Of a DNA stretch of 64,000 nucleotides, positions 5,352 through 39,889 are shown piece by piece. This stretch comes from Thermanaerothrix daxensis. GTDB taxonomy: Bacteria > Chloroflexota > Anaerolineae > Anaerolineales > Anaerolineaceae. The notes beneath the pieces are model-generated. The model searched no databases, was not told the DNA's origin, and saw only the letters and a list, made by a program, of their open reading frames with translations. Position numbers and translations under genes: made by a program. Where the stretch lies: the NCBI RefSeq assembly GCF_001306145.1, contig NZ_LGKO01000004.1, positions 248,001 to 312,000 on the forward strand. Reading direction: 5' to 3'. Position 1 is the stretch's first letter. Each line of letters begins with the position of its first letter.

Positions 5352-5359
5352 CCTTCCTG

Positions 5360-6555: not shown

Positions 6556-6563
6556 GGTCATCC

Positions 6564-7274: not shown

Positions 7275-7281
7275 ACACCCT

Positions 7282-8055
7282 CTAAACGGCTCGTACCCGG
7301 CGGGTGCGTCTTGCGCCTGAACGAAGCGACTCGCTCATCGCGTAAGCCCTTAGGCGCTCCACCTCGTCTGGCGTCAGGTGTCGCCACTCGCCGGGCTTCA
7401 AATTTCCAAGCTCGATGGGCCCAATTCGCGTCCGCACCAATCTCCGCACGGGCAAGCCAATCGTACGGGCTATTTCGCGAATTTCGCGCTTACGCCCTTC
7501 GCACATCACGACTCGTAGCCAGGCCCCTTCTCGAACTACACCTTCCAAAGTGACTTCGGCTGGGGCCGCCCTTCGCCCATCTGGTAAGACTACGCCATGG
7601 CGCCAGGCTTCTAATTGTTTTTCATCAGGACGCTTTGCTACTAGAACCCGATACTCTTTTTCCTTACCGTAGCGCGGATGAGTAAGGCGGTTTGCTAACT
7701 CCCCATCATTGGTAAGCAGGATCAACCCCTCGCTCTCGTAATCCAGCCGGCCCACAACGAAAAGATGTCCCGGAAACGGCACCAGATCGTAAACAGTACG
7801 CCGCTTTTCATGGAGCGCATGATCTGAGAGCACCCCCTGGGGCTTATTGAGGATGATGTAGGTAAATTGGGATACCGGCTTGGGAATTGGGTGACCATCC
7901 ACGGTAATTTGGTCCCTTTCTGGATCGGCCTTCATTCCCAGAGTGGCCGTAACACCATTGACTTTGACCCGCCCTTGCGCGATGAGCGTTTCCGCTTCAC
8001 GCCGTGAGCCCAAACCTGCACGGGCTAAAATCTTCTGCAAACGTTCTTCAACCAT
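7282..8055 (-). CDS. 23S rRNA pseudouridine synthase, RluB/RsuA family
   Basis: Isomerises a specific uridine in rRNA. 257 residues: an N-terminal S4 RNA-binding domain (residues 1-60, RLQKILARAGLGSRREAETL) and a catalytic domain with the Asp in GRLDYESEGLILLTNDG. EGRKREIREI is the conserved late motif. ATG 8055 (MVEERLQK) has AAGGA 7 bases upstream. The TTG at 8064, which overlaps the scpB stop, has no usable ribosome site. The scpB-rluB order is a common bacterial pairing. RluB is favoured over RsuA by that context only. Confidence 0.9.
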   Translation of the reverse strand: MVEERLQKILARAGLGSRREAETLIAQGRVKVNGVTATLGMKADPERDQITVDGHPIPKPVSQFTYIILNKPQGVLSDHALHEKRRTVYDLVPFPGHLFVVGRLDYESEGLILLTNDGELANRLTHPRYGKEKEYRVLVAKRPDEKQLEAWRHGVVLPDGRRAAPAEVTLEGVVREGAWLRVVMCEGRKREIREIARTIGLPVRRLVRTRIGPIELGNLKPGEWRHLTPDEVERLRAYAMSESLRSGARRTRRVRAV

Positions 8056-8060
8056 ATATA

Positions 8061-8624
8061 TCAATCCTTCAGTAAAGAGGTATCGGAAGGTTCTTCGTTG
8101 GCCTCCTCAAGCGGTGGCAATTGATCGAGAGATTCTAAGCCAAAATAAGCGAGAAAATCCGCTGTGGTACCGTAGAGCAGCGGACGCCCCGGCAAATCAG
8201 CACGCCCACGTTCCTCGATCAGCCCTTTAGCCAGCAAACTACGCACCACCGAATCGCTATTCACCCCGCGAATGGCTTCGATCCCCGCACGGGTAATAGG
8301 TTGACGATAGGCAATAATAGCAAGGGTTTCCAATGCCGCCTTGCTCAACCGGGACCCGACCTCAAGCCCTAACAGGCGTTCCACGTAAGGCGACACCTCT
8401 GGCGCGGTGGTGAGTTCATAATGCCCCCGATGAATACGCAGACGCAATCCTCGCTGGCAATAGGACTCTTGAAGGCGTAACAAAGCTGCCTTAACCTCCT
8501 CTTCACTCACCCCAATGGCCGTTGCCAGTTGAGCCACAGAAAGGGGGGAAGAAGCCACAAAGATCAGGGCTTCCACAATGCTTTCAAGCGGGAGAGAGAG
8601 CGCGTCAAGATTATCCTGCTGCAT
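8061..8624 (-). CDS. scpB: segregation and condensation protein ScpB
   Basis: Kleisin-interacting subunit of the SMC-ScpA-ScpB condensin that organises and segregates the chromosome. 187 residues with the two winged-helix layout: LESIVEALIFVASSPLSVAQLA at the N-terminus, and KAALETLAIIAYRQPITRAGIEAIRGV, the family signature, in the second wing. The last third is acidic and low in complexity. scpA is not adjacent, since the upstream gene is divergent. rluB follows, overlapping at the level of its possible TTG start. Confidence 0.93.
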   Translation of the reverse strand: MQQDNLDALSLPLESIVEALIFVASSPLSVAQLATAIGVSEEEVKAALLRLQESYCQRGLRLRIHRGHYELTTAPEVSPYVERLLGLEVGSRLSKAALETLAIIAYRQPITRAGIEAIRGVNSDSVVRSLLAKGLIEERGRADLPGRPLLYGTTADFLAYFGLESLDQLPPLEEANEEPSDTSLLKD

Positions 8625-8626
8625 GC

Positions 8627-8632
8627 TATAAT
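8627..8632 (+). promoter_or_regulatory. possible -10 element for the lipoprotein gene
   Basis: TATAAT in the 33-base gap between divergent scpB and the lipoprotein gene, 25 bases before the ATG at 8658. No good -35 box is visible because the upstream bases are scpB coding sequence. Confidence 0.35.
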
Positions 8633-8657
8633 TGAAACCGCCTAAGAATCTTCCTCT

Positions 8658-10262
8658 ATGAACCCTATGAACTCAACGACGATGGAAATCTTCCGCCGTA
8701 TCGGCTTTGTCCCTTTGTTGCTCCTGATCCTCGCACTAATGGTGCTGCATGCTTGCACGCCTTTATCAACCTCCAGTCATGAGATCAGCGTCACCGTCGA
8801 GGATAACGGGCAACTATATGAGGCTAAGGTACCTAATGGCACTAACGTCCAGACGGTCCTTGAACGGCTGGGGCTTACCTTGGGAGTGTTGGACCGCACC
8901 GAACCGCCCACATATACCATTCTGAATAGTGCTTCGAGGATTACTATTATACGCGTTAAAGAGGTTTTTGAGACCGAAGAGGTTGTGGTTCCCTTTGAAC
9001 AGCAGATCGTAAAAAACGAATCGCTCGCTGAGGGAGAAACGCGCCTGGTACAGCCAGGAGAAAACGGCCTGCAGCAGATCACCTACCGCCGCTTGCTGGA
9101 GAACGGCAAAGAGGTTGCGCGCACTGTGTTCAAGGTGGAAATCCTGAGTGAACCGCGCCCTGAGATTGTCATGGTGGGAGTCCAATCCCCCCTTGCCCCC
9201 GTTGATCTGCCGGGTCATTTGGTGTATCTGGCAGGAGGGAACGCCTGGTTAATCCGCGAGAGCACTGGCAATCGTTACCCATTGGTCACTTCTGGAGACC
9301 TGGACGGGCGCATCTTTTCGCTCTCCCCAGATGGAAAATGGCTCCTCTACACGCGGCAGAGCAAAGAGGCCGGACAAATCAATACTCTCTGGGTCGTCAA
9401 CCTCACCACAGAGCGACCTCAACCGATTAACCTCAAGGTCAATAATGTCGTTCACTATGCTGAGTGGGTGCCCGGTACTTCATTAACGATCACCTACTCC
9501 ACTGTTGAACCGCGTAGCGCACCCCCAGGATGGCAAGCCAATAATGATCTTTACCGATTGATCATATCACCAGATGGTCGCGTCTTAAAAAATGACAGAC
9601 TGATCGACTCCAATGCTGGCGGAATTTACGGGTGGTGGGGTACCACATTTGCCTGGTCGCCCAACGGGAACTATCTGGCCTACGCACGCCCCGACTCGGT
9701 AGGATGGGTTAACCTGAAAGAACAAACTTTCGAACCGCTTTTATCGCTTCAACCGTTGGAAACCGGAGGGGATTGGGCGTGGGTGCCCACCCTGGGATGG
9801 ACGGCCGATGGGCGCTTTCTTTTTACTATTGCCAATGGGTCCCAGGGGGAAGCCGGTGCCTCGTCATTCACTCTCAAAGCCCTGTCTTTTGATCCCCTGA
9901 TGATGCTAGATATCGTCAAAGATACGGGCATGTTTGCCAACCCGGTGCCTGTCCCTGAAACCCAGAGTTCCCCCCAGTGGGTGGCTTATTTGCAGGCTAT
10001 TTTTCCCTCTCAAAGCGAAACAAGCCGCTATCGCCTGATGTTAATGGATCGTGATGGATCGGACCAGCGTGCCCTCTTTCCTCCCGAAGGGTCAATCGGT
10101 CTTGAACCCCAGCGTCCGGTTTGGTCCCCTCTTTCTTCATCCAACTCGCCGCGCTGGATTGCGATTATCTATCAAGGTAACTTGTGGCTGGTTGAAATCC
10201 CTTCTGGACAGGCCCGTCAAATCACAGGCGATGGCCTAACCCGCCGAATAGATTGGAAATAG
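8658..10262 (+). CDS. lipoprotein with G5 domain and TolB-like beta-propeller
   Basis: 534 residues. The signal peptide ends in a lipobox (VLHACTPL, lipid-modified Cys33), so the protein should be anchored outside the cytoplasmic membrane. Residues about 40-95 resemble the DUF348/ubiquitin-like repeats that precede G5 domains. Residues about 100-165 form a G5 domain (VVPFEQQIVKNESLAEGE..., ending FKVEILSEPRPEIV). The remainder contains repeated WSP/LSPDGKWLLY-type blades like TolB/WD40-like propellers. Such proteins usually bind cell-wall glycans or act in envelope maintenance, and no enzyme motif is visible. Function unknown beyond that. It is followed by a sugar-nucleotide gene. Confidence 0.8.
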   Translation: MNPMNSTTMEIFRRIGFVPLLLLILALMVLHACTPLSTSSHEISVTVEDNGQLYEAKVPNGTNVQTVLERLGLTLGVLDRTEPPTYTILNSASRITIIRVKEVFETEEVVVPFEQQIVKNESLAEGETRLVQPGENGLQQITYRRLLENGKEVARTVFKVEILSEPRPEIVMVGVQSPLAPVDLPGHLVYLAGGNAWLIRESTGNRYPLVTSGDLDGRIFSLSPDGKWLLYTRQSKEAGQINTLWVVNLTTERPQPINLKVNNVVHYAEWVPGTSLTITYSTVEPRSAPPGWQANNDLYRLIISPDGRVLKNDRLIDSNAGGIYGWWGTTFAWSPNGNYLAYARPDSVGWVNLKEQTFEPLLSLQPLETGGDWAWVPTLGWTADGRFLFTIANGSQGEAGASSFTLKALSFDPLMMLDIVKDTGMFANPVPVPETQSSPQWVAYLQAIFPSQSETSRYRLMLMDRDGSDQRALFPPEGSIGLEPQRPVWSPLSSSNSPRWIAIIYQGNLWLVEIPSGQARQITGDGLTRRIDWK

Positions 10263-10289
10263 ATCCAGAATTTTTACAAGGAGAGGCAT

Positions 10290-11246
10290 ATGCGAATTCT
10301 CGTTACCGGTGCGGCAGGGTTTTTGGGTTCCCATCTATGTGACTACCTGCTCCAACAGGGCCACGAAGTCATTGGGATGGATAATTTCATCACCGGCAGC
10401 CCTGACAACCTTGCTCATTTAGCGGGAAATCCTCGTTTTCTCTTTATTCGTCACGACGTGTCCAACTTTATCTTCGTACCCGGCAAAGTTGATGCCGTGC
10501 TCCACTTTGCTTCTCCGGCCAGCCCGAATCCGAACTCTCCGTACGGGTACACCAACCTCCCCATTCAAACCATGAAGGCAGGAGCCCTGGGGACTCATAA
10601 TACCCTGGGGGTTGCTCGAGCACATAATGCTCGTTATCTTCTAGCCTCCACCAGCGAAATTTACGGTGACCCCCTTGAACATCCACAGAAGGAGAGCTAC
10701 TGGGGACATGTGGATCCCATTGGGGTGCGTTCCGTTTACGACGAAGCCAAGCGGTTTGCCGAAGCGCTAACCATGGCTTACCACCGCTACCACGGTCTGG
10801 ATACGCGCATTGTGCGTATTTTCAACACCTATGGCCCCCGTATGCGCCTGGACGATGGGCGCGTCGTGCCCAATTTTATTCAGCAGGCACTGCGCGGCGA
10901 ACCCCTTACCGTATATGGAGATGGATCACAAACCCGCAGTTTCTGCTACGTGGATGACTTAATCGAAGGGATATACCGCCTTCTGCTTTCCGATGAACAT
11001 TATCCGGTCAACCTGGGTAATCCCCAGGAAATTACCATCCTGGAATTCGCCGAGGTTATCAACCGTCTGACTGGGAACAAGGCTGGGATTGTCTTTAAAC
11101 CGGAGAACCGCCTGGGAGACGACCCCCAACGTCGGCAACCCGATATTACCCGCGCCCGCCAGATCCTGGGATGGGCACCAAAAACATCCTTAGAGGAGGG
11201 CATACGGCTGACCATACCGTATTTCCGCCAAAAAATGGGGTTGTGA
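10290..11246 (+). CDS. UDP-glucuronate decarboxylase-like NAD-dependent epimerase (SDR)
   Basis: 318 residues, extended short-chain dehydrogenase. NAD-binding [15 protein letters not shown] at the N-terminus, catalytic YDEAK (YxxxK) with upstream STSEIYG, and FNTYGPRM, which closely match UDP-xylose synthase (UXS). UXS turns UDP-glucuronate into UDP-xylose for surface glycans. A strong ribosome site (AAGGAGAGG) precedes ATG 10290. The stop overlaps the gtrA start (GTGA), so it is coupled to a lipid-linked sugar flippase candidate. Other dTDP/UDP-sugar epimerases are possible but fit less well. Confidence 0.88.
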
Positions 11247-25500: not shown

Positions 25501-27534
25501 ATGAATCGCTTACAGCATTCCGCCTCTCCCTACCTTTTGCAACACGCCCATAACCCCGTAGATTGGCATCCCTGGGGCGAAGAGGCGATTAACAAGGCCC
25601 GCCGCGAAAATAAACCTATCTTTCTCAGCATCGGCTACTCCGCATGTCACTGGTGCCATGTGATGGCGCACGAATCCTTTGAAAATGAGCAAGTGGCGGC
25701 CTTTCTCAACGCCCACTTTATTCCAATCAAAGTGGACCGCGAAGAACATCCCGATGTGGATGCCCTCTACATGAATGCCGTCATTGCAATGACCGGGCAA
25801 GGTGGATGGCCCCTTTCGGTTTTCCTGACGCCATCCCTAGAACCTTTTTTCGGCGGTACCTATTTTCCCCCCGTACCCCGGCATGGGCTACCTTCGTTTT
25901 TACAGGTATTGCAAGCGGTTCATCACACCTGGGTGCATGATCGGCAAAGCCTTCAGGCCCTGGCCAGCAAAGTGTACGAGCACCTGCATCAATCATACAC
26001 CTGGCAACCCACCCCGCAAGCCATCAATTATGAAGCCGTGCTCACAACGGCCCTGAACGAACTCGAGCGCACTTACGACTGGCAGCATGGTGGCTGGGGA
26101 CGGGCTCCCAAATTTCCTCAACCCCTTGCTATTGAATTTCTCTTAAGCCAGGCCAGCCGTGGTCATTCTCAAGCCGGGAGCCTTGCTTTCCATGCTCTGC
26201 ACATGATGGCAACTGGTGGGATATTTGACCTTGTTGGCGGAGGATTTCATCGTTATAGCACCGATGCTGACTGGTGCATACCTCACTTTGAGAAGATGCT
26301 TTACGATAATGCTCAACTCGCTACCGTTTACCTCCAGGCCTACCTTCTATCAAGAGACGAAACCTTTCGTTATATCGCTGAACGCACTCTGGATTTCATT
26401 TTGAATGAACTCGCCCATCCTCCAGGTGCATTCTATGCCAGCCTGGACGCTGATTCAGAAGGAGAGGAAGGGAAATTCTACACCTGGCCGATAGAGGACC
26501 TCAAAACTCTCCTAACCCAAGCCGCTACCTGGGAGGATTTCACCCGGTTATTTCGCCTGGATGAGAGAGTCACTCACGAGGGAAAATGGGTGCTTAAAGC
26601 CAGGTCCACCTGGCCCGAACTGGCACAAATCCAGGGCCTTACAGTGTCAAAATGTCTGGAACACGCCCAAAACCTCCTGCATTCACTCTTTATTCACCGC
26701 CAGCAACGGCCACGCCCGGCCACCGACGATAAGATCATTGTGGCCTGGAATGCGCTGGCTATCCGGGCATTTGCTCTGGCCAGCCGTTGTTTAGGACGTC
26801 CGCAGTATCTAAAGGCGGCCCAAGATGCCGCTAGATTTATTCTGGAAAACCTGTATCAAGATCACCATCTTTACCGCTCATGGCGCCAAGGCACACTTGG
26901 CCCCTTTGCCCGCCTGGAAGACTATGCCTCGCTTATTATTGCCTTGCTTGAACTTTATCAGGCTGATTTCGATAATACCTGGTTCATTCAAGCCAAATCA
27001 CTGGCCCACGAAATGCTGGAACGCTTTCGCGATCATGAGGGTGGCTTCTTCGATACCCCCCAAGAGGATACCTCCCTGCCTCTTCGCCCCAAAGAAATTC
27101 AGGATAGCGCCACCCCTTCAGGTAACGCTCTGGCAACCCACGCTCTACTTCTCCTCTCGTACCTGGACGAACATGAAGAATGGATGGCCATGGCGCAAAA
27201 TCTCTTAACCTGGATTGCAAATGCCTGCCGGCGTTACCCACTGGGATTCGCATCTTTTTTACGTTGCATAGATTTGGCCTTCGGGCCAGTCCAACAAATC
27301 GCATTGCTATGGAGAGACTCGCAGAGCGCACTCCCCTACCTAAATCACCTGCACACTCAGTATCGCCCACGGATGATCCTAGCGGGGAGCACAATACCCC
27401 CCGCTCCCAGCGCCCCTACCTTGGTGCGCATTAACTACCCTGCTCCCGAGGCACCGCTAACGGCTTTCATTTGTAACAATTTCGTGTGCCTGCGCCCTCT
27501 CACCTCGTTTGCAGAGTTTGTCGCGCAGGTCTAG
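25501..27534 (+). CDS. thioredoxin-domain protein, DUF255/YyaL (SPATA20-like) family
   Basis: 677 residues. An N-terminal thioredoxin-like domain (DUF255, residues 1-165) contains [20 protein letters not shown] with a CHWC active site and [15 protein letters not shown]. It is followed by an (alpha/alpha) barrel of six-hairpin glycosidase type from about 180 to the end ([37 protein letters not shown]). The family is widespread and its enzymatic role is not settled. ATG 25501 follows CACATC without a clear ribosome site. TATAAT at 25462-25467 may be its -10 box. The stop interlocks with the convergent dhaM stop (CTAG). Confidence 0.9.
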
Positions 27535-30071
27535 CCCCCCACACCCAGTGCTTGTAAGAACTTGGTGGCCATACGGCGTACTTCGGAGGCTTTGGCGCAC
27601 TTCACTGCCTTTTGGGCCAGACTTTGAGCCTCACTCATGGTCATGGCGCGAAGGATCGCTTTAACCTTTGGAATACCGGCAGGGTTAATGCTCAATTCGT
27701 CAACACCCAATCCCACCAGGATAGGCACTGCTTCCGCTTCGCCGGCCAGTTCTCCACATACTCCCACCCATTTTCCCTCTTGATGAGCGGCCTGCACCAC
27801 CTGCTCGATCAACCGCAACACAGCCGGATGCAAGCCATCCCCCAGATAAGCCAGATGGGGATTTCCCCGCTCGGCTGCCAGCGTGTACTGAGTCAGGTCA
27901 TTCGTACCGATACTGAAGAAATCCACTGCAGGAGCCAGGGCTTCCGCTTTGATGGCCGCCGAGGGTATTTCAACCATGATGCCGGTCTCAATCGGCCAAG
28001 CATGCACAATACCCTCACTCTCAAGATCACTATGAACCTGAGACAGGAACTCGCGTGCCTGCTCGACCTCTTCCAGAGTAGCAACCATGGGGAACATAAT
28101 TCTCAAATTGGCCAATGCCCCCGCGCGCAAAATTGCCCGCAACTGGGTGCGAAACAAATCAGGCTGCTGAAGGGAAAGGCGCAAAGCCCGCACCCCCAGA
28201 AACGGATTGGCTTCCGGTTCCATTGGAATGTACGGCAATGGCTTATCCCCACCCACGTCCAGGGTGCGCACGATAACCGGCTGGCCTTTTAAGGCTAATC
28301 CAATGTCACGTATCGCCTGAAACTGCTCCTCCTCCGAAGGAGGCGTTTGCCGCGTCAAGAAGAGAAACTCGGTGCGTAGTAACCCAATACCCTTTGCCCC
28401 ATTCTGAGCCGCCAGCTGGGCATCGGTCAGGTTACCAGCATTGGCCACCACCTCAACCCGCTTGCCATCGCGCGTTACTGCAGGTTGCAGACTGCTAGCA
28501 AGAAGTTTTTGGCGTTCCTCAAGCCAGCGCCTCCGCTCGACCTCCAGTTCATTTCGCACCCGTTCATCGGGGTTGACCCAAACACGCCCGCGGAAACCAT
28601 TCAGCCCCAATTCGGTCTCTGAAGACAACCGCTTGATGGCAGGGGGCAATCCGGTCACAGCCGGGATACCCAACGACCGCGCCAAAATAGCACTGTGCGA
28701 CGTTGGCCCTCCACTCAGAGTAATAATCCCTTGAATGTGTTCGAGATCCAGTTGAGCCGTCTCGGAGGGCGTAAGTTCATCCGCAACCAGGATTACGGGA
28801 TATTCAAAAACGATTTTCTCCCGGCTCTCCCCACTCAAGGCCCGCAATACTTGATTACCCACGTCCTGAACATCCTGAGCCCGCTGACGCAGGTAAGGGT
28901 CGTCCAGGCTCTGATATTGGGCTACCATAGCCTCCACGCTGGTCTGCCATGCCCATGCCGCGTTATAACGTTGCTCAAAAATGAGCCGTCGAGCAGGTTG
29001 AAGCAGGTCCGGATCATCTAACAGCAAAGCATGAGCCTCAAAAATCGCTGCCTCCTCCGGACCGACGCGGGCCACCATTTCACGATAACGAGCCTGGATG
29101 GCTCCACGCACTTTTTCAAGGGCATCCTGTAAACGCTCCCATTCGGCCTCTGGGTCGGAGGTATAGTCGTGAGGTACCATTGGGGGTAGGGATTCATAGT
29201 GATAGAGTCGCGCTACCGCCACCCCATCGGAGACGGGAAGGCCCACAAACACGCCCTCTTCCCCCTGCACCTCAACCTCTGCCTCTGCAACAACCGGCTG
29301 TATCGGAGGAGGCCCGCCTTCGGCAGCACCCACAGGCTCACCAAAGCGATCCTCAACCAGCCGCCGCAGAGCCTCCAGTGCCTCAGTTGCCTGCTTACCA
29401 CGTGCCATAATACGGATGCGGTGATCACGTAAAGCCCCCAGAGTTGCCAACGCGTTTAAACTCTTTGCCGAGACAGGGCCCTTCTGGTTGGTTAAATTTG
29501 TCACCAGAATTTCGGCATCAAATTTCGAAGCCAATTGCACAAAACGCGCCGCCGGACGTGCATGGAGTCCGTGCGCGTTCTTGAGCACGACTTCTACTTG
29601 GTGAAAGTCTTGGGCTTCCAATGGAGGAGCAACCTCTACAACCGGCGCCACCCCCTCAACGCTACCCTCCAATTGCTCCGCTTTGGGTTGCAGAGCTCGA
29701 TGGGCTTCACGACATACAGTCTCAATATCACTGCCCAGGCTAGCCTGAACTCCAGCGGCAATCCCCCCTTCCACCAGGGGGCCGGGGCAGAAGCGAACCC
29801 GTTGGCGTATGTCGGGAGGAATCAACTCCAGAGCCATCTCTGCGCTCAGGATGGCACTGCCCAAGTCCATCAGCACCAGAACCCCGTCGGGGCTATCCAC
29901 TTCGGTGATGGCTCGCGCAATGTCGGTTGCGTCGGTCCCAAATTCCTCGTGGTCAGGCCCGGCGCCTGCGGCTACGCCAATCTTGAGTTCCCGGCCGGCC
30001 ATCTGTCGAATCAATCCCACCAGTGATTCGGCCAGAGATTTGCTATGAGAAACCAGAACGAGGCTCACCAT
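27531..30071 (-). CDS. dhaM: DhaM-HPr-Enzyme I fusion (PEP-dependent dihydroxyacetone kinase phosphoryl donor)
   Basis: 846 residues carrying three phosphotransfer units in one chain. A DhaM EIIA-Man-like domain comes first (1-130, phospho-His9 in [12 protein letters not shown]). An HPr domain follows (about 155-245, phospho-His170 in [14 protein letters not shown]), then Enzyme I (about 275-846, phospho-His459 in [15 protein letters not shown]-site [23 protein letters not shown]). It should relay phosphate from PEP to DhaL-bound ADP, so that DhaK can phosphorylate dihydroxyacetone. No separate ptsH/ptsI or EIIBC gene is in the window. The frame is open to 30164, but ATG 30071 begins the conserved [12 protein letters not shown]. 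It is the last gene after sdhD, 10 bases away. Confidence 0.95.
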
Positions 30072-30081: not shown

Positions 30082-30459
30082 TCATGCTCCCCAATTGATG
30101 ACGGCAAACAATAACCAGATGCCATAGCCGGTGGCCACCAAACCAATAGCCACCAGCAGAGCATCTATAACCCGCATGATATTTTTCTTAAGGTTCAAAT
30201 CTAGCAGGATGCTCCGCGTACCGATCAAGGAGTGAGATACCACAAAGACGAGGAAAAACCCCTCCATAATAGGCACGATGGGGTAGTTCCGGTAGTAGGC
30301 AACGACTTCAGCGTGGGAAAGCAACCCCTCGGGTGCCAGATAGTGATTGACCAAAAAGTGAATGAACAAGATCACTATGATCAGCAACCCGGTCACGATT
30401 TTGATAAACCATAAGAGGTAACTCTCACCAGCTTTGGGTTGGGAAACTGCGTTTTGCAT
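30082..30459 (-). CDS. SdhD-like haem b membrane anchor subunit
   Basis: 125 residues with three hydrophobic helices (about 17-38, 62-84, 96-120). Histidines 34 and 39 (LFIHFLVNHY) and His76 with Arg82 (VVSHSLIGTRSILLD) fit haem ligands and the quinone-site pattern of SdhD/FrdD. GAGGAGG stands just before ATG 30459. It lies 13 bases after sdhC and 10 bases before dhaM. Because no SdhA is encoded and a GlpA gene heads the group, it may anchor a glycerol-3-phosphate dehydrogenase rather than a succinate dehydrogenase (inference). Confidence 0.82.
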   Translation of the reverse strand: MQNAVSQPKAGESYLLWFIKIVTGLLIIVILFIHFLVNHYLAPEGLLSHAEVVAYYRNYPIVPIMEGFFLVFVVSHSLIGTRSILLDLNLKKNIMRVIDALLVAIGLVATGYGIWLLFAVINWGA

Positions 30460-30472
30460 GGTACCTCCTCAT

Positions 30473-30868
30473 TTAGTGCGCTGCGAGCATGCGCAGTCCA
30501 AAAATAAGCGAACCCACCAGCGTGAGCCCCAGCACCCCATATAACAACTGTTTTTGGGCCGGCACAGCCACTCCAAAACTATTGAGTGCAATGCGCACGC
30601 CGTTCAAGCCATGATACAGACCGCCGATGATCACCAGCATCTCTCCGAACATGATCAGGGGTTGCTTGGCAAAAGCGATAAAAGAATCATAGGCTTCTGG
30701 TCCCTGGGCTAATTTACCTAACATGACCAGGTGAAGATAAAGGTACACGGTTAAGCCAATAGCGGTCAAGCGGTTAAGAATGAACCCCCATCCACCAACC
30801 TGCCGCCCGCGTGGATCAAACCAATCCAGAATGCCCCGAGTGTTGGGTTTCTTTGCAGGACTTTCCAT
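30473..30868 (-). CDS. SdhC-like cytochrome b membrane anchor subunit
   Basis: 131 residues, three helices. NRLTAIGLTVYLYLHLVML carries the first conserved His (46), and GGLYHGLNGVRIALNSFG carries His86 and Arg92, the classic SdhC haem/quinone pattern HxxNGxR. Together with the SdhD-like partner there are enough histidines for two haems b (type A membrane module). AAAGGAG lies 9 bases before ATG 30868. It is co-transcribed with sdhB-like (23 bases) and sdhD-like (13 bases) genes. The electron donor is probably the GlpA-type flavoprotein (see findings). Confidence 0.85.
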   Translation of the reverse strand: MESPAKKPNTRGILDWFDPRGRQVGGWGFILNRLTAIGLTVYLYLHLVMLGKLAQGPEAYDSFIAFAKQPLIMFGEMLVIIGGLYHGLNGVRIALNSFGVAVPAQKQLLYGVLGLTLVGSLIFGLRMLAAH

Positions 30869-30891
30869 GGTAGTACACTCCTTTTCCTGGG

Positions 30892-31638
30892 TTAGGCTCC
30901 TCCAAACCAGCGTTTAATACGCTGGGCCAGTACCTGCCGCCGCAGATCCATGATCCGCCAGCCCGGATCCACGTTAGAGGGACACACCGCTGTACATTCG
31001 TAAGCACTATGACAGCGCCAGACGCCATCCACGCAATCCACCACTTCCGCCAAGTCAGGAGCACGTTTCAGCCCCTGCAGTTGCGCCGCCGCGAGGACAG
31101 CCGGCCCAAGGTACTCTTCAGCAGTACCAGCCACCGGACAGGCACTTATGCATAGTCCACATTCTATGCAATCTGCCAAACGCAGGTATTCCTTTCCACC
31201 ATCCATCGGCACGTCACGGGGTGGCTTAATCCCTTCCCCCTCCAACGGTGCCAGCGAGAGCGGGTGAACGGCAGGAGCATGAACTTTGTCCATCCCTACG
31301 TAAAGGCGGCTCATATCAACGACCAAATCGCTTATGACAGGGAAATTGCGCAAAGGTTCAATCCGCAAGGTGCCGCCATTTTTGGTGACATCTCGAATGC
31401 GAGTAATGCAGGTTAACTTTTCCACCCCATTGACCCGCATTCCACACGCGCCGCAGGTGGAATGATGGCAAGCGTGGGCAAAGACTAATGACCGATCATG
31501 AAATGCCCAGATACGTTCAACCCCATCAATAACATACTCATCGGGGCTGACCTCAAGTGTAAACGTCTGATAATGGGGTTCTCCATCCCCTTTCTTGCGA
31601 TACACCACAAAATTAACGGTCCACTTTTCCTCGCTCAT
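30892..31638 (-). CDS. SdhB/FrdB-like iron-sulfur subunit
   Basis: 248 residues with exactly the eleven cluster cysteines of SdhB. [2Fe-2S] Cys57, 62, 65 and 77 lie in HACHHSTCGACG...LTC. The two C-terminal clusters use Cys157, 160, 163 and 167 (CIECGLCISACP) and Cys209, 215 and 219 (CHSAYECTAVCP). The second of these groups lacks a Cys at the third position, as expected for a [3Fe-4S] centre. The segment 112-150 is an insert or linker not typical of E. coli SdhB. GGAG precedes ATG 31638. It lies 39 bases after glpA, and no sdhA gene is present. GlpC, the usual GlpAB partner, has a different arrangement without the N-terminal [2Fe-2S] domain. Confidence 0.88.
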   Translation of the reverse strand: MSEEKWTVNFVVYRKKGDGEPHYQTFTLEVSPDEYVIDGVERIWAFHDRSLVFAHACHHSTCGACGMRVNGVEKLTCITRIRDVTKNGGTLRIEPLRNFPVISDLVVDMSRLYVGMDKVHAPAVHPLSLAPLEGEGIKPPRDVPMDGGKEYLRLADCIECGLCISACPVAGTAEEYLGPAVLAAAQLQGLKRAPDLAEVVDCVDGVWRCHSAYECTAVCPSNVDPGWRIMDLRRQVLAQRIKRWFGGA

Positions 31639-31677
31639 AGGTGTGCTCCATGCAAGAGTATGGGCTGGTTCGGGGGA

Positions 31678-32841
31678 TTAATCCACGTAAAATTTACGAT
31701 ACGATATCAACGGCGTTTCGGCTGTGGTACAGGGAACATTCACACCCAGTTTCTTGCATACCAGATCCACAGTCTTTTCCGCCATTAGGCGCAAGGTAGT
31801 CGCCTTCCCGCCGGTAATGGTGACCAACCCCTCGATGTTATCGGTTTCTTTGTGGTCATAGGCTTTGAAGGTGCGCGAAATACTTCGGCCAGGCGCCCCA
31901 CTACCGATCAGCGGACGGGTAGCCATATAGGCACCCCGTTCTTTAGTCTGTCGCAGGGCGGGGATTAATTCGGACCCACGCTCAATCATCAAGGCGACAT
32001 GATCCGGTAAAACCGGCACATAATCTGGATCTTCAATGGAGAACGAGGTGGTCCCGACCACCATCATCCGCCGCTGAGGCAAAACGATATCTCCATCGCC
32101 CGGTTTGTTCAACCGATTGATGGCTCGTTGGGTCAAGCGCTTGTCATAAGCCACCATGACACCAGGAGTCGGTGCAATTGGCACCCGAATACCCGCCATG
32201 GAGGTAATCTGCCCCACCCAGGCACCGGTAGCATTGACCACAATATCCCCTTCGATCTCAAAGCGCTTATCATTGGCGCGATTCCAAACCTTCACTCCCT
32301 TGATATTCCCCTGACCATCGGTAAGCAAATCCACCACATCGGTGTACAGATGAAATACGGCTCCATTCGATTTAGCCGTGGCCGCAAAGGCCAGTGCCAG
32401 GCGTAGAGGATCAAAAGTACCATCAGGTACGGTAAAGGCGGTCAACAGTTTGGGGTTCAGGTTGGGCTCAATGCGCAATGCTTCCTTCGGGGTCAGCTCA
32501 CGGATCGGAATTTTGCATTCCTCACAGCCCTGGATGAATTTTTCGCGATATTCCAAATCACTCTCGTCTACAGCAATGAACAATCCCCCATTGGGCTCAA
32601 TCGCATCCGGAACTATTAATCGCAAGATTTGATTTTCCTGGATACACTCAATTGCCGATTCTTGATCATTCACAGCATAACGTGCCCCCGAGTGTAGCAG
32701 CCCATGGGTGCGTCCGGAAGTCCCATTGGCAATCGGTCCACGTTCAACCACTGTGACGCGGAAACCACGCAATGCCAGATCATGAGCAATTGCCACACCC
32801 GTGAAGCCAGCCCCTATCACAATCGCATGAAATTGGCTCAT
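31678..32841 (-). CDS. glpA: GlpA-type FAD glycerol-3-phosphate dehydrogenase
   Basis: 387 residues. The FAD Rossmann loop is IVIGAGFTGVAIAHDLALRG, and the following GTSGRTHGLLHSGARYA is typical of GlpA/GlpD. VVNATGAWVGQI and TITGGKATTLRLMAE are the late FAD/substrate motifs. It oxidises glycerol 3-phosphate to DHAP at the membrane. E. coli GlpA is near 540 residues and ends in a BFD-like [2Fe-2S] domain. That domain is absent here, so electrons must go to another protein, presumably the SdhB-like subunit encoded next. AGGAG lies 8 bases before ATG 32841. glpB and glpC are not present. Confidence 0.9.
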   Translation of the reverse strand: MSQFHAIVIGAGFTGVAIAHDLALRGFRVTVVERGPIANGTSGRTHGLLHSGARYAVNDQESAIECIQENQILRLIVPDAIEPNGGLFIAVDESDLEYREKFIQGCEECKIPIRELTPKEALRIEPNLNPKLLTAFTVPDGTFDPLRLALAFAATAKSNGAVFHLYTDVVDLLTDGQGNIKGVKVWNRANDKRFEIEGDIVVNATGAWVGQITSMAGIRVPIAPTPGVMVAYDKRLTQRAINRLNKPGDGDIVLPQRRMMVVGTTSFSIEDPDYVPVLPDHVALMIERGSELIPALRQTKERGAYMATRPLIGSGAPGRSISRTFKAYDHKETDNIEGLVTITGGKATTLRLMAEKTVDLVCKKLGVNVPCTTAETPLISYRKFYVD

Positions 32842-32902: not shown

Positions 32903-33148
32903 CTACCGTCGAAATAGACGATGAATGAGCAAAAACAACAAAAACACAATCCACAGGCTTCCACCGAAGACCAGCCCCCACAATAAACTTTCTCCCAGGG
33001 GCTTAGAATAAGAACCCTGCCAGGTCACCCACACCACCATCAAGACACTGACAACCGCCATGGTAATAATGCCGCTCTTCATAGATAGCCAGGGTTGTCC
33101 GGTTGCAAAAGGATCTTGTTCAACCTGGCGTTTCTTTTTTTTGCTCAT
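32903..33148 (-). CDS. small two-helix membrane protein of unknown function
   Basis: 81 residues. A Lys-rich N-terminus (MSKKKKRQVEQ) is followed by hydrophobic helices at about 24-44 and 51-76, ending in HRLFRR. I recognise no family. It lies 61 bases before glpA in the same direction and behind a candidate promoter, making it the first gene of the glpA-sdhBCD-like-dhaM unit. It could be an accessory subunit or simply a neighbour. The reading frame is supported by the positive-inside charge pattern and the lack of any competing frame. Confidence 0.6.
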   Translation of the reverse strand: MSKKKKRQVEQDPFATGQPWLSMKSGIITMAVVSVLMVVWVTWQGSYSKPLGESLLWGLVFGGSLWIVFLLFLLIHRLFRR

Positions 33149-33356: not shown

Positions 33357-34853
33357 TTACTCGACCCACCCAAAGGTGCGCTGGACGGCCTTCTTCCAAC
33401 CAGCATAGAGCCGCTCGCGTTCCTCAGCTCTCATTTGCGGTTGCCAGACCTTATCCACCTGCCAGTTGGCGCGCAGTTCGTCAAAGTTGGTCCAGAAGCC
33501 CACGGCCATACCGGCTGCATACGCCGCACCCAGTGAGGTGGTCTCGGCTACCTTCGGACGAATGACCGGTACACCCAGGATGTCCGCCTGGAACTGCATC
33601 AGCAGTTCATTGTACACCATGCCACCGTCCACCTTGAGGGCGGTTAGCGGCACGCCAGAGTCGGCGTTCATCGCATCCAGCACCTCGCGGGTCTGGTAAG
33701 CCGTGGCTTCCAACGCCGCCCGTGCAATGTGACCGCGGTTAATGTAGCGGGTCAGACCCACAATCACGCCGCGGGCATCGCTGCGCCAGTAGGGTGCGAA
33801 CAAGCCGGAGAAAGCAGGCACAAAGTAGATGCCACCGTTGTCCTCAACCGTGCGGGCCAGCGGTTCAACATCCTTTGAGGACTCAATCATCTTTAGGTTG
33901 TCGCGCAGCCACTGCACCAGCGCCCCCGTGATGGCGATCGAGCCTTCCAGCGCGTAGACAGCCGGTTGATCACCAATCTTGTAGGCCAGCGTGGTCAACA
34001 AACCGCTCTTGCTGGGCACCGGGCGCGTACCGGTATTGAGCAGCATGAAGCAGCCGGTACCGTACGTGTTCTTTGCCTCGCCAGGGCTGTAGCAGGCCTG
34101 CCCAAAGAGAGCCGCTTGCTGATCGCCAAGGTCACCGGCAACCGGAATGCCATCCAGCAAGCCCTTGGCATAGCCATAGACCTCAGAGGACGGGCGAATG
34201 GCCGGCAGCATCGCGCGCGGAATTCCCAGGATACCCAAGATTTCATCATCCCAATCCAGCGTTTCCAGGTTCATGAGCATGGTGCGCGAGGCATTCGATA
34301 CATCCGTCACATGCACACCGCCCTGCGGACCGCCGGTCAGATTCCAGATCACCCAGGTATCAATGTTGCCGAAAATCACTTCTCCCTTCTCGGCTTTTTC
34401 GCGCACTCCCGGCACATTGTCCAGGATCCACTTGATCTTGGGTCCCGAGAAGTAAGTGGCCAGCGGCAGACCGGTCTTGGGGCGGAAGCGGTCCTGTCCA
34501 CCATCGGCGGCAAGCTCGTTGCAGATTTTGTCAGTGCGGGTATCCTGCCAGACGATAGCGTTGTATACTGGCTTGCCGGTTGCCTTTTCCCATACAATGG
34601 TGGTTTCGCGCTGATTGGTCACACCAACCGCGGCGATATCCTTGGGGCTCACCCCACTCCTGCGCAACGCGCCTTCGATCACCTCTTGTGTTCGCGTCCA
34701 GATTTCCATCGGGTCATGTTCGACCCAACCCGGCTTGGGGTAAATCTGCTCATGCTCTTTCTGATCAACCCCTACCACGTTGCCGCTGTGGTCGAAGATC
34801 ATAAAGCGAGTACTGGTCGTACCCTGATCAATAGCGGCAGCATACTTGGCCAT
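33357..34853 (-). CDS. glpK: glycerol kinase
   Basis: 498 residues, FGGY kinase family. Makes glycerol 3-phosphate from glycerol and [19 protein letters not shown] is the ATP/Mg N-terminal motif, followed by [21 protein letters not shown] and [13 protein letters not shown] typical of Glp[18 protein letters not shown] and [21 protein letters not shown] complete the FGGY signatures. GGAGG lies near ATG 34853. It sits between dhaL (44 bases upstream) and the glpA unit, feeding the glycerol 3-phosphate dehydrogenase. Confidence 0.97.
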
Positions 34854-34897: not shown

Positions 34898-35533
34898 TTA
34901 CGCGTCACGCCAAACATCGGCGGCCGCCCGCAACATAAGATAGGACGAAGTTGCCCCTGGATCTTGATGACCAGCGCTGCGTTCGCCCAGATAACTGGCA
35001 CGACCTTTCCGCGCCACCAGCGGGATCGTGGCTTTCATTCCCTCCTCGGCAGCACGTGCACACCGCTCCAGGGCCTCGCCCAGGTTACTACCGTTTTCTG
35101 CGGCTTGCTTGAGCGCATTCCAGGCCGGTACCAGGGCATCAATCATGGTCTTATCGCCCAACTCGGCTTTGCCACGGTTCTTTACCCCCGTGATCCCAGC
35201 CTCCAAGGCGTTGATCCAGTCCTCTAATGTCATTTCCATTTTGCCGGTAGTCTTCATCCCGGCCTGGAGGAAGAGGGTGCCGTAAAGAGGACCACCCGCA
35301 CCGCCAACGGTAGCCAATAGCGTCATGCCCACCGTCTTCAGGATCGTGCCAATATCCTTGTCGGCCATTTCCGGCATTTTGCTCAGTACGGCCTTAAAGC
35401 CGCGATCCATATTGGCCCCATGGTCGGCATCACCAATAGCCGCATCCAGTTGGGTCAGGTAATCACGGTTCTCCGCCAGAAGATCGGCGTAACGCTTAAT
35501 CCAATCCAGTACTTTGTCCCGAGTAATGACCAT
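34898..35533 (-). CDS. dhaL: dihydroxyacetone kinase subunit DhaL
   Basis: 211 residues. Carries the tightly bound ADP that receives phosphate from DhaM and passes it to dihydroxyacetone on Dha[21 protein letters not shown] holds the Mg/ADP-binding aspartates, with [15 protein letters not shown] and [16 protein letters not shown] as further conserved loops. The frame is open from 35563, but ATG 35533 has GGAG 6 bases upstream. Lies 60 bases after dhaK and 44 before glpK. The final motif HQDPGA is typical of PEP-dependent DhaL. Confidence 0.94.
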
Positions 35534-35593
35534 ACGACGCTCCGTTATGGCCGGGGGCATCATCAGGCAAACCCCGGCAAGTCTTCATGGGTA

Positions 35594-36595
35594 TTACATG
35601 CCCCAGCGCAGGCCCGGGGTCTTGACCGGCGCATCCCACAACTTAATCATGTCCTCATCCATCTTGAGGAGCGTGATCGAAGTACCGGCCATCTCCAGGC
35701 TGGTAATATAGGACCCGATCAGATTGCGCACCACCTTTAGCCCGTGCTTGGTCGCAATCTGATGCGCCTTGCGGTACACAATGTACAATTCGATGAGTGG
35801 CGTGCCTCCCATGCCGTTGACAAAGAGCAACACCTCATCGCCTGCTTTGTAGGGGATATCATTGATGATCGGCTCCATCAGCATTTCAACAATTTCATCA
35901 GCCGGTTTTAGCTTCATGCGCGTGCGCCCCGGCTCCCCATGGATGCCGATCCCGATTTCCATTTCGTCTTCGGGAAGGTCAAAGGTTGGGCGCCCCACAT
36001 GAGGCACGGTGCATGAGGTCAACGCCATGCCCATGCTGCGTCCCCAATCCTTCACTTTGCGACAGACATCCGCTACTTCTTTGAGCGAGCGCCCCTGCTC
36101 GGCAGCCGCCCCGCACAACTTTTCGGCCAACACAGTGCTCCCAACCCCACGGCGACCAGCCGTGTAGAGGCTATCCTTCACCGCCACGTCATCATCAATG
36201 ACGACGGACTCGACCTCAATCCCCTCGGCACGTGCCAGGTCTGCTGCCATTTCGAAGTTCATGATGTCGCCAGTGTAGTTTTTAACAATGTGCAGCACAC
36301 CAGCGCCGCCGTTGATTGCCCGCGTGGCTTCCAGCATCTGGTCGGGGGTGGGAGAGGTAAACACTGCTCCAGGGCAGGCGGCATCCAGCATACCGATGCC
36401 CACAAAACCACCGTGCATGGGCTCGTGCCCCGAACCACCTCCGGAGAGGACCCCTACTTTCCCCTTGACCGGTGCATCTACACGCACAACGTAATTAGGA
36501 TCAAAGTGCACCCGAATCAGGTCGGGATGAGCCAGCGCCATCCCCTCCAGTTCCTCTCGTACAACATCTTCGGGTTTATTGATTAACTTCTTCAT
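35594..36595 (-). CDS. dhaK: dihydroxyacetone kinase subunit DhaK
   Basis: 333 residues. Binds dihydroxyacetone covalently through a histidine (GIGIHGEPG) and hands the phosphorylated product on as [20 protein letters not shown] is the substrate-loop signature and [14 protein letters not shown] a further conserved block. It matches the stand-alone PEP-dependent form (DhaK plus DhaL plus DhaM), not the fused ATP-dependent kinase. AAGGA precedes ATG 36595. In Enterobacteria DhaK and DhaL also modulate the DhaR regulator, and a DhaR-like gene is encoded upstream here. Confidence 0.95.
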
Positions 36596-36743: not shown

Positions 36744-37538
36744 TTACTCACTCTTCTCGGGCAAGAAGGCGGTGACGAACCAATCGTAAAGCAGCACGCC
36801 CAAAATACCGCCGATGATCGGCATAATCACGGGGGCGACGATCCAGTAGGAGCCATCGAAGAGGCCTTGCGTCCCAACCAGAGCGCCGAAGATGCGCGGA
36901 CCCAGGTCACGAGCCGGGTTGATGGCATAACCGCTCGGGCCACCCAGGCTCAGACCGACCGAGAGCACCGTGCCACCCACCAGGAACGGCCCCATATTGA
37001 ACTTCAGGCCCAGGTTGCGCTGATCACCGCTGGCAAGCACACCGAAGAGCAGCACCATGGTGCCAAAAATTTCCGCAATGCTGGCATTCAGCAGCGAATA
37101 GGAGCCCTGTGCCGCAGCACCCTGGCCGCCCCAGAAGGCCTGCCCGAATACCGAGCCGGGGCCAGTGCACCACACATTGGGCATGCCCGCTGCCACCAGA
37201 CCCTCACGGTAGACCAGGTACACACCCAGCGCGCCCAGGAACGCACCCACCAATTGGCCCAAGATATAGGTGGGCACTTTGGACCACGGGAAGCCGCGCT
37301 TAACCGCCAGCGCAATGGTCACCGCAGGATTGAGATGGGCGCCCGAAACGCCACCCGCAACATAAACCGCAACAATGACTGCGAAGGCCCAGCCGATGGT
37401 GATGGTGTTCCAGTTATAGGCTGGTGCTGCCAAGCGCGGGGCAAGCCCCACATTGGCGACCACACCATCACCCAGCAAGATCAGGGTGAAAGTACCAATG
37501 ACTTCGCCCAGAAACTCGCCTAAACCTTTGGATTTCAT
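36744..37538 (-). CDS. glpF: glycerol facilitator / aquaglyceroporin (MIP family)
   Basis: 264 residues, six helices and two half-helices. NPA boxes at 70-72 (SGAHLNPAVT) and 207-209 (GYAINPARDLGPR). The Asp directly after NPAR marks the glycerol-conducting subgroup. Brings glycerol, and possibly dihydroxyacetone, across the membrane. GGAGAGG lies 6 bases before ATG 37538. It heads the run glpF-dhaK-dhaL-glpK and follows a terminator that separates it from dhaR. A possible short leader ORF overlaps its start. Confidence 0.95.
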   Translation of the reverse strand: MKSKGLGEFLGEVIGTFTLILLGDGVVANVGLAPRLAAPAYNWNTITIGWAFAVIVAVYVAGGVSGAHLNPAVTIALAVKRGFPWSKVPTYILGQLVGAFLGALGVYLVYREGLVAAGMPNVWCTGPGSVFGQAFWGGQGAAAQGSYSLLNASIAEIFGTMVLLFGVLASGDQRNLGLKFNMGPFLVGGTVLSVGLSLGGPSGYAINPARDLGPRIFGALVGTQGLFDGSYWIVAPVIMPIIGGILGVLLYDWFVTAFLPEKSE

Positions 37539-37860: not shown

Positions 37861-37917
37861 CCGATTAATGTATCGGTTTGAAACATTTTAGCGACATTGT
37901 GTTTCATAATGAAACAC
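37861..37917. promoter_or_regulatory. tandem palindromes, candidate DhaR operator
   Basis: Three inverted repeats stand in a row: CCGAT-TAATGT-ATCGG (37861-37876), GTTTGAAAC (37876-37884) and GTGTTTCAT-A-ATGAAACAC (37899-37917). The last two share the GTTTC/GAAAC core with centres 28 bases apart. The last one covers the dhaR stop codon. They lie about 320-380 bases upstream of glpF. The rest of the 365-base gap holds the dhaR terminator and the glpF leader. Confidence 0.45.
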
Positions 37918-39889
37918 CGCTTTCGCGCCGCCCATCTTCACGATAGGAATCCAGTGAGATATTCATGCGCCGTAAGTGGCGCCACAAGGTAGTTCGTCCC
38001 ACCCCCAACAGACGCGCCATTTGAGAAACATTGCCATGGCATTGTTGGGCAGCCTGGAGAATGGCCTGCCGCTCAATCTCTTCCAGGCGGGGGAGATTGG
38101 GCATCCACATGGGAACACCTGCATCAGTACTGGTTTGCAGAGGGGGCAAGTGTGCCGGCATGATAATCTGGGAGGGACTGGCCTGCACCGCCGCCCGCGT
38201 CAATACCGACTCCAGTTCTCGCACATTCCCCGGCCAGGAATGTGCTCTCAGGATGGCCAGGGTATCCTTGCTCAGACTAAGCGGATGCCCTAATTGCCTT
38301 GCCAGGCGCTGCAACACCTGTTCGATCAACAATTCCAGGTCCTGTTTGCGTTCCCGCAAAGGGGGAAGAACGATCTCAAACAGGCTTAGACGATAAAAGA
38401 GATCGGCTCGAAAGTTACCCTCAGCCACCAGGTGTTCCAGATTGGCCGAACTCGAAGCAATGATGCGAACATCCACCTCAATCGGCTTGCGGCTGCCAAT
38501 GCGCTGGATAATCCCTAACTCCAGGTAATTCAGCAATACCGACTGCGCCTCCAGGGGTAGCGCCTCTACATCCTGAAAGAAGAGGGTACCCCCGTCAGCC
38601 AGTTCAAATTTGCTGGCATGTGAAATGCCCTCCCCCACACCGCGCTCCACCCCCAGCAACTCGGGCAAGACCAATTCACTGGGCACCGCGGTACAAGCAA
38701 ACACCACAAAAGGCCCATGACTGCGCGGGCTGTGGTAATGGATGGCACGGGCGAGCAAATTTTTACCGGTTCCACTTTCTCCCCGGATAAGCACACACCC
38801 CCGTGCTGCAGCCGCGCTGCGTGCCAGGCGCCGCACGCGGCGAATGGCGGGTGACTCGCCAATTAGATTCTGAAGATCAAAAGTGGGAGAACCCACCTGA
38901 CGCTGGACGTACTCGCGCAGACTCTTGAGCGGACGTAAAACTGCCAGAATGGCTCGCAGACCACGCCGTCCACGGACATATTGCAGGCTCAGCAAGCAGG
39001 AAACTGTTTCCCCTAATACCGAAAGTTGAACCTCTAGATCCGAGACCGGAATTTGGCGATGGAGGGCATCCAGCACATATGGCGGGAATTTCACAAAAGC
39101 ATCCAGATGAGCCCCCATGAGCGACTCCTGGGGAACCTTGAGAATTTCAGCCGCAGTGGGATTAGCGTGGATCACAATTCCCTCTGTATTCCACGCCAGA
39201 ATGCCTTCGTTGATACTGGCCAGAATGGCATTTATTCCGGCCAACTGGCTGTTTTGCTCTTCCAACAACTGATCTGACTGACGTTGGGCTTCAATGGCGC
39301 GCGCACCTGCCACCACCATACCCAACGCATACGGGTGGAAATTACTGACCCGCGTCACCACTCCTAATGCCCCGAGCAACTTGCCGCTGATATCAAAAAC
39401 CGGCGCTGCTGCCCAACCAAAATCGTGCAACGGCTGACAAAAATGTTCATACCCGACCACTTGAACGGGCTCACGTTCAAGCAGTGCCACGCCAATGGCA
39501 TTGGTGCCCAATTCGCTCTCGGCCAGCAACGTACCTGGTTCAATCTGCATGCTCTCCAGGGTAGCCAACATCCCCGGATCTCCTACCCAATCCAGCAAGT
39601 ACCCCACGCTGTTGGTAAAAAGCACCGCTGAATTTGAGTTTTCAATGTACTGATAAATGTCCTCCATGACGGGCCGGGCAATAGCCATTAACTCAAAATA
39701 ATTAACTTGCATGGAAAACAAATGCTGGTCAGACAACCGCGGCGGCTTTAGGGAAGTATAGGGGTCCACCCGTGCCCAACAGCGCCGCCATGACGCTGCG
39801 ATTATAGGTCGCACTTGGGGCATAACGATATGACGAGTTATAAATGCATGCCATGCATCGTAAAGTTGCTCTTTGATCGCCCGATCCAT
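37904..39889 (-). CDS. dhaR: DhaR/AcoR-like enhancer-binding-type transcriptional activator
   Basis: 661 residues: GAF-like sensor (about 60-200), PAS (about 215-300), AAA+ core (about 340-565), and a Fis-type helix-turn-helix (VSQMARLLGVGRTTLWRHLRR, 621-641). Walker A is intact (GESGTGKN, 370-377) and so is the arginine-finger region (FRADLFYRL). The sigma-54 contact loop GAFTGA reads GVGEGI (417-422), and Walker B, usually LFLDE, reads LFFQD. As I recall, E. coli DhaR is similarly degenerate and works with sigma-70, controlled by DhaK and DhaL. Position upstream of glpF-dhaKL-glpK and the C-terminal helix support the DhaR call. It is divergent from murA. Confidence 0.85.
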   Translation of the reverse strand: MDRAIKEQLYDAWHAFITRHIVMPQVRPIIAASWRRCWARVDPYTSLKPPRLSDQHLFSMQVNYFELMAIARPVMEDIYQYIENSNSAVLFTNSVGYLLDWVGDPGMLATLESMQIEPGTLLAESELGTNAIGVALLEREPVQVVGYEHFCQPLHDFGWAAAPVFDISGKLLGALGVVTRVSNFHPYALGMVVAGARAIEAQRQSDQLLEEQNSQLAGINAILASINEGILAWNTEGIVIHANPTAAEILKVPQESLMGAHLDAFVKFPPYVLDALHRQIPVSDLEVQLSVLGETVSCLLSLQYVRGRRGLRAILAVLRPLKSLREYVQRQVGSPTFDLQNLIGESPAIRRVRRLARSAAAARGCVLIRGESGTGKNLLARAIHYHSPRSHGPFVVFACTAVPSELVLPELLGVERGVGEGISHASKFELADGGTLFFQDVEALPLEAQSVLLNYLELGIIQRIGSRKPIEVDVRIIASSSANLEHLVAEGNFRADLFYRLSLFEIVLPPLRERKQDLELLIEQVLQRLARQLGHPLSLSKDTLAILRAHSWPGNVRELESVLTRAAVQASPSQIIMPAHLPPLQTSTDAGVPMWMPNLPRLEEIERQAILQAAQQCHGNVSQMARLLGVGRTTLWRHLRRMNISLDSYREDGRRESGVSL

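Follow-up and report, generated by a model that had tools for sequence, protein, structure and literature searches.

In the portions of Schmerling et al. 2025 (PMC11962113) consulted here, bacterial glpA is said to go consistently with glpBC, and Thermofilum-related archaea are described as having a syntenic arrangement in which glpA is followed by counterparts of sdhB, sdhC, and sdhD. The same portions propose, without biochemistry, a GlpA-SdhBCD complex for Thermofilum pendens that serves as membrane anchor and electron path. We report on a bacterial locus with this gene order, found in a stretch of 64,000 nucleotides from Thermanaerothrix daxensis (assembly GCF_001306145.1, contig NZ_LGKO01000004.1; hereafter the window, whose numbering is used for positions). 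Four adjacent genes in the window, listed below, very probably encode one membrane-bound respiratory complex, GlpA-SdhBCD, in which a GlpA-type flavoprotein takes the place of SdhA.

31678..32841, minus strand: glpA-h, a truncated GlpA-type flavin adenine dinucleotide (FAD) glycerol-3-phosphate (G3P) dehydrogenase of 387 amino acids, DAO fold only (TIGR03377, Pfam DAO)
30892..31638, minus strand: sdhB-h, an SdhB/FrdB-type iron-sulfur subunit of 248 amino acids (TIGR00384, 11 invariant Cys)
30473..30868, minus strand: sdhC-h, a three-helix membrane anchor of 131 amino acids with His46, His86, and Arg33 (Pfam Sdh_cyt, three hydrophobic segments)
30082..30459, minus strand: sdhD-h, a three-helix membrane anchor of 125 amino acids with His34, His39, and His76 (Pfam Sdh_cyt, three hydrophobic segments)

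We base this reading on conserved linkage, a separate sdhCDAB operon in the same genome, distinct clades, co-evolution, invariant residues, an AlphaFold placement, one locus that carries both this operon and glpABC, the oxidases of the genome, and the Thermofilum precedent. An earlier interpretation made from the letters of the window (the sequence-only reading) had described four close minus-strand genes, with gaps of 39, 23, and 13 bases in that order and without SdhA, GlpB, or GlpC among them, and the open reading frame (ORF) coordinates and family matches agree with it on each of these points.

The flavoprotein resembles GlpA in its catalytic part and ends before the domain that would carry an iron-sulfur cluster. 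Against NCBIfam, GlpA-h matched TIGR03377 with 458.1 bits over profile positions 2–378 of 530, which made it the best-scoring family by a wide margin; the cut-off of 552.8 was not reached because the C-terminal part is missing. The Pfam scan of GlpA-h gave DAO with 185.6 bits and showed neither Fer2_BFD, which in Escherichia coli GlpA forms a [2Fe-2S] domain at residues 432–484, nor DAO_C, the mark of GlpD/GlpO. A GlpA of 387 residues that lacks the usual C-terminal iron-sulfur domain, as the sequence-only reading had it, is therefore upheld. In alignment, GlpA-h residues R54, Y55, R309, R323, and K346 correspond to R54, Y55, R317, R332, and K354 of E. coli GlpD, which we take to be substrate-site residues. 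The first four are invariant in 127 hybrid GlpA sequences (those encoded beside sdhBCD-like genes) and K346 is kept in 126 of the 127, the single departure being K346E at locus L126. Hybrid GlpA lengths range from 366 to 402 amino acids across 131 loci.

The remaining three subunits correspond to the base of a succinate dehydrogenase or fumarate reductase (SDH/FRD). SdhB-h matched TIGR00384 with 157.6 bits (cut-off 88) as well as Pfam Fer2_3 and Fer4_8, and its best matches in the PDB include E. coli FrdB and SdhB. It had been described as an 11-cysteine protein, which stands for the cluster ligands (invariant at positions 57, 62, 65, 77, 157, 160, 163, 167, 209, 215, and 219) but not for the total, which is 12. 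This ligand set suits a [2Fe-2S], a [4Fe-4S], and a [3Fe-4S] cluster. Cysteine 65 is invariant in the hybrids, and the residue there is aspartate in E. coli SdhB and in the canonical SdhB of T. daxensis.

Both anchors, as first described, are three-helix proteins with conserved histidines and an arginine. Pfam Sdh_cyt was matched with 52.6 bits by SdhC-h and 33.5 bits by SdhD-h, each with three hydrophobic segments. In SdhC-h, H46, H86, and R33 are invariant (130 rows), H86 and R33 corresponding to E. coli SdhC H84 and R31; in SdhD-h, H34, H39, and H76 are invariant (124 rows), and H76 corresponds to E. coli SdhD H71. Of the haem-type histidines, E. coli, with one haem, keeps only the second of each pair, and canonical SdhCD of T. 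daxensis keeps all four. The four conserved histidines of the hybrid anchor (SdhC H46/H86, SdhD H34/H76) would be enough for two bis-histidine haems b, and the sequences fit such an arrangement. SdhC-h R33, SdhD-h D87, and SdhB-h H210 align with E. coli R31, D82, and H207 and are kept; these E. coli residues are presumably at or near the quinone site of succinate:quinone oxidoreductase (SQR). By its family matches and residues, the module has both the SdhB-type subunit, with ligands for three clusters, and the two-subunit anchor, with histidines and quinone-site residues, that are typical of SDH/FRD.

The linkage of glpA with sdhBCD-like genes is conserved far beyond T. daxensis. In a survey of 101 genomes of the same family, queried with SdhB-h, SdhB proteins fell into two sets, with the hybrid type in about 40 genomes (~55–100% identity) and the other set near 30%. 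Among the 30 best loci, which were read, all with enough sequence had the order glpA-sdhB-sdhC-sdhD, and one (L040) was cut by a contig end. Across 400 Chloroflexota genomes, SdhB matches down to 177 bits stand behind GlpA (L042–L056, of which L043 is cut), and the lower matches that were read (L060–L068) adjoin SdhA. The sole exceptions to linkage that we saw were three orphan SdhB genes of the hybrid clade (L057, L058, and L059, in genomes G357, G137, and G441, all of one family). A wide scan covered 84,980 species, and its best 80 loci, all bacterial, were read: GlpA lies upstream in 78 of 78 testable cases, the other two ending at a contig border, and SdhC was found at 80 loci, SdhD at 76, GlpK at 64 (within ~4 kb), and DhaM at 47. 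SdhA, GlpB, and GlpC were absent from the flanks read at hybrid loci, apart from one case with glpABC next door (L191). The sequence-only reading held that consistent separation of glpA from the sdhBCD-like genes in relatives would speak against it; the surveys found no such separation, and glpA beside sdhB without sdhA is a fixed pattern across relatives, with the three orphans excepted.

The operon also occurs in cultured and named organisms. Among named relatives, the closest match to the locus comes from an uncultured Thermanaerothrix metagenome-assembled genome (L145), with 89–99% protein identity, and the type strains Anaerolinea thermolimosa IMO-1, Longilinea arvoryzae KOME-1, and Levilinea saccharolytica KIBI-1 carry the hybrid operon together with a separate canonical SdhAB. 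At one further locus (L143), the hybrid operon lies beside a sugar-kinase-like gene that is 29% identical to GlpK, perhaps a sign of a variant substrate there. One match was labelled Nitriliruptorales, and in its phylum, Actinomycetota, 10 of 296 genomes have the same operon. We consider it unlikely that this operon is contamination from Chloroflexota, as the actinobacterial WhiB family was present in all 10 hybrid-bearing Actinomycetota genomes and in none of 10 Chloroflexota genomes. The arrangement therefore occurs in two bacterial phyla, Chloroflexota and Actinomycetota, and the family, phylum, wide, and Actinomycetota surveys together reject a local accident in one genome.

We searched the T. 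daxensis genome (3.01 Mb, six contigs, 97% complete) and found exactly two SdhB genes, sdhB-h and one in a complete sdhC-sdhD-sdhA-sdhB operon elsewhere; GlpB was not found in this genome. An SdhA whose only B, C, and D partners were the genes at this locus had been named as a result that would overturn the proposed pairing. The SdhA of this genome has its own B, C, and D subunits in the complete sdhCDAB operon, and we reject the hybrid SdhBCD as its partners.

Phylogenies place the hybrid subunits apart from those of the known enzymes. The GlpA tree unites 60 hybrids in a single clade (Shimodaira-Hasegawa-like approximate likelihood ratio test, 100) with a stem of 1.07 and leaves 12 canonical GlpA outside it. 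In the SdhB phylogeny, one clade (99) holds the hybrids together with the three orphans, and 14 canonical SdhB stand opposite it (99). GlpB was present in 74 of the 400 sampled Chloroflexota, and few of these also carry the hybrid. At L191 (G490:C214:4000-14500, positions 1592-10499), both systems stand in a single run: glpK, a DhaM-type gene, glpA-glpB-glpC, and then hybrid glpA-sdhB-sdhC-sdhD, with a canonical GlpA of 567 amino acids that has Fer2_BFD and a hybrid GlpA of 393 amino acids. As far as sequences can tell, the hybrid is a distinct family and not a degraded GlpABC. The long stem of the hybrid GlpA clade could also be taken to mean that the flavoprotein acts on a substrate other than G3P, since substrates vary among DAO-fold enzymes and the kinase-like neighbour at L143 is so distant from GlpK. 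We find this highly improbable, given that the GlpD-matching residues are conserved almost without exception in the hybrids, that GlpK adjoins most loci, and that no other family scores near TIGR03377.

The hybrid subunits have also changed together. Mirror-tree correlations over 51 loci were 0.89 for GlpA-SdhB, 0.81 for GlpA-SdhC, and 0.77 for GlpA-SdhD, compared with 0.51 for GlpA-GlpK and 0.43 for SdhB-GlpK, and the GlpA-SdhB value stayed at 0.86 once GlpK was removed. For structure prediction we made use of the fact that glpA-h and sdhB-h lie in one frame, separated by a 13-codon spacer without a stop. With the glpA-h stop read as glycine, the window DNA gave a chain of GlpA, 14 residues, and SdhB, for which AlphaFold (61 rows) returned a predicted local distance difference test (pLDDT) value of 86.7 and a predicted template modelling (pTM) score of 0.89. 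A control of GlpK and GlpA joined likewise from L101 (34-codon spacer, 61 rows) had a pLDDT of 85.9 and a pTM of 0.59, which would be about the value expected for two well-folded but unplaced domains. The sequence-only reading had looked to a GlpA/SdhB interface, and when two of the four subunits were joined into one chain, the predicted interface was confident and scored above the control. A Foldseek search with the fused model returned, in its best 50 rows, only GlpD/GlpO-type and other DAO chains.

These results bear on the possibility that GlpA-h acts alone, like GlpD or the CoxG-anchored archaeal enzymes, with SdhBCD as a spare SDH/FRD base that is merely co-transcribed. Co-transcription by itself is no proof of a complex, and according to the consulted portions of PMC11962113 a truncated GlpA from Sulfolobus reduces quinones without iron-sulfur partners. 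Yet the SdhA of this genome already has its partners, and the clade to which SdhB-h belongs is distinct and has no flavoprotein as a constant neighbour other than this GlpA. Together with co-evolution far tighter between GlpA and SdhB than between GlpA and GlpK, and with a joint placement well above its control, this makes a solitary GlpA-h very unlikely. The inference that GlpA replaces SdhA on an SQR-type module is thus well supported by linkage, clades, co-evolution, residues, and the GlpA-SdhB prediction.

The surrounding genes are concerned with glycerol. The four-gene block is flanked upstream by glpF-dhaK-dhaL-glpK and downstream by a dhaM fusion:

27531..30071, minus strand: dhaM fused to HPr and phosphotransferase system (PTS) enzyme I, the phosphoryl donor of DhaK (TIGR02364, 116.5 bits; PTS-HPr; TIGR01417, 564 bits)
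32903..33148, minus strand: membrane protein of 81 amino acids with two helices, encoded between glpK and glpA (two hydrophobic segments; no Pfam match)
33357..34853, minus strand: glpK, glycerol kinase, which makes glycerol-3-phosphate (TIGR01311, 770 bits; cut-off 590)
34898..35563, minus strand: dhaL (TIGR02365, 254.8 bits; cut-off 138)
35594..36595, minus strand: dhaK (TIGR02363, 493 bits; cut-off 406)
36744..37538, minus strand: glpF-like aquaglyceroporin for glycerol entry (recognized by eye from the ORF and its NPA motifs)

The glycerol-metabolism neighbours named in the sequence-only reading are thereby borne out, glpK, dhaL, dhaK, and dhaM by NCBIfam and glpF from the ORF only. The dhaM gene most likely starts at 30071 rather than at 30164, the start of the longest ORF, judging by the point at which the DhaM profile sets in. 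With EIIA, HPr, and enzyme I in a single protein, DhaM would be a self-contained phosphoryl donor for DhaK. Homologues of the 81-amino-acid membrane protein were found at 14 of 80 hybrid loci. A DhaR-like regulator with GAF, PAS, sigma-54 AAA, and Fis domains lies at 37904-39889 on the minus strand; a scan of the window for sigma-54 promoters (-24/-12 sites) gave 7 matches against 6.1 expected, so there was no excess.

From these features we infer a four-subunit complex, its haem content, its electron path, a quinone acceptor, and a direction from G3P to quinone. Glycerol would enter via GlpF, and GlpK would form G3P, which GlpA-h with FAD would oxidize to dihydroxyacetone phosphate (DHAP), as its residues and neighbours suggest. 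GlpA-h lacks the C-terminal [2Fe-2S] domain, so FAD would hand its electrons to the [2Fe-2S] cluster in SdhB-h, which could stand in for the domain that E. coli GlpA has. The ligands and quinone-site residues suggest that they would continue through the [4Fe-4S] and [3Fe-4S] clusters to quinone at the SdhB/SdhC/SdhD site, and from quinone onward to oxidases or nitrite reductases. With potentials of about -190 mV for G3P/DHAP and about -74 mV for menaquinone, the reaction is downhill, and a second haem would not be needed to drive it. We offer as a tentative and rather doubtful suggestion that the hybrid is a third bacterial type of respiratory G3P dehydrogenase, major in Anaerolineae and present in several other Chloroflexota classes and Actinomycetota, whose two-haem anchor may carry electrons across the membrane and so tie G3P oxidation to membrane potential. 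To our knowledge, neither GlpD nor GlpABC does this.

Outlets for quinol are present in T. daxensis. A cydA gene followed by a cydB-like gene lies near the canonical sdh operon, and the genome paper for strain GNS-1 reports complex I, alternative complex III with a haem-copper oxidase, a bd oxidase, and nitrite reductases. Several observations nevertheless weigh against our reading of the locus. In the 97% complete genome, MqnA had no matches and the best MenD match reached 69 bits against a cut-off of 244, even though a quinol oxidase, SDH, and the hybrid operon are all encoded. The hybrid is not the sole route of G3P oxidation, as a GlpD/GlpO-like G3P dehydrogenase of 539 amino acids with DAO_C is encoded on another contig (G000:C2:42601-44220; L197:2102-3721). 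No glpA, SdhA, or SdhC/D match lies within 1.5 kb of the three orphan SdhB genes. The joint placement of GlpA and SdhB comes from an artificial read-through chain with a 14-residue linker, and it was compared with one control, in which the linker was longer and the paired rows were fewer. Our literature search found no biochemistry for any GlpA-SdhBCD member. As a side observation, the GlpD/GlpO-like gene adjoins one for an FAD-linked oxidase that is GlcD-like (perhaps alkyl-DHAP-synthase-like) and one for an apparent GntR-type regulator.

The results for MqnA and MenD would also suit a real complex for which quinone is not the main acceptor, with the four histidines permitting a transmembrane haem pair that serves another acceptor, or with the complex running in reverse to make G3P. 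Against this stand the conserved SdhC R33, SdhD D87, and SdhB H210, whose quinone-site role is presumed, the catabolic operon context of glpF, glpK, and dhaKLM, and the presence of a cydAB quinol oxidase. We regard another acceptor or reverse operation as unlikely, and we favour G3P:quinone oxidoreduction by GlpA-SdhBCD.

A complex of this kind has already been proposed for archaea (PMC11962113), so the reading is not wholly new; what is new here is that the arrangement is widespread among Chloroflexota and Actinomycetota, that its subunits form clades of their own and co-evolve, and that an interface was predicted and compared with a control. Our literature search found no bacterial GlpA-SdhBCD beyond that proposal. 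The hybrid operons correct the view that GlpA in bacteria is consistently partnered by GlpB and GlpC, and they point to a modular respiratory complex, a complex-II base with its flavoprotein swapped for one of different substrate. In annotation, a hybrid sdhB can be mistaken for a gene of succinate dehydrogenase or fumarate reductase, which would inflate calls of the tricarboxylic acid cycle or fumarate respiration in Chloroflexota genomes. The bacteria that carry the operon are hard to study, yet they include cultured type strains, so that the complex and its activity are directly testable.

Compared with known systems, the hybrid shares with E. coli GlpABC the DAO domain of GlpA, the G3P-site residues, and the role beside glpK, but it has no Fer2_BFD domain, GlpB, or GlpC and has the SdhB-SdhC-SdhD module instead. 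With SdhABCD/FrdABCD it shares an SdhB-type subunit with 11 cluster cysteines, two three-helix anchors, four histidines, and quinone-site residues; it differs in having a GlpA-type DAO flavoprotein and no SdhA, and an SdhB of a separate clade with Cys65 for Asp. The GlpA-CoxG enzyme of Sulfolobus acidocaldarius, as described in the consulted portions of PMC11962113, is similar in its truncated GlpA without C-terminal iron-sulfur cysteines and in its operon-encoded membrane partner, but its CoxG-like anchor is dispensable for quinone reduction in vitro and so provides no electron path like that of SdhBCD. The likeness to Thermofilum GlpA-SdhBCD, compared by description from the same portions, extends to gene order and to a flavoprotein of the GlpA cluster that falls in a different subcluster from bacterial GlpABC; that system is archaeal, whereas the hybrid described here belongs to Chloroflexota and Actinomycetota.

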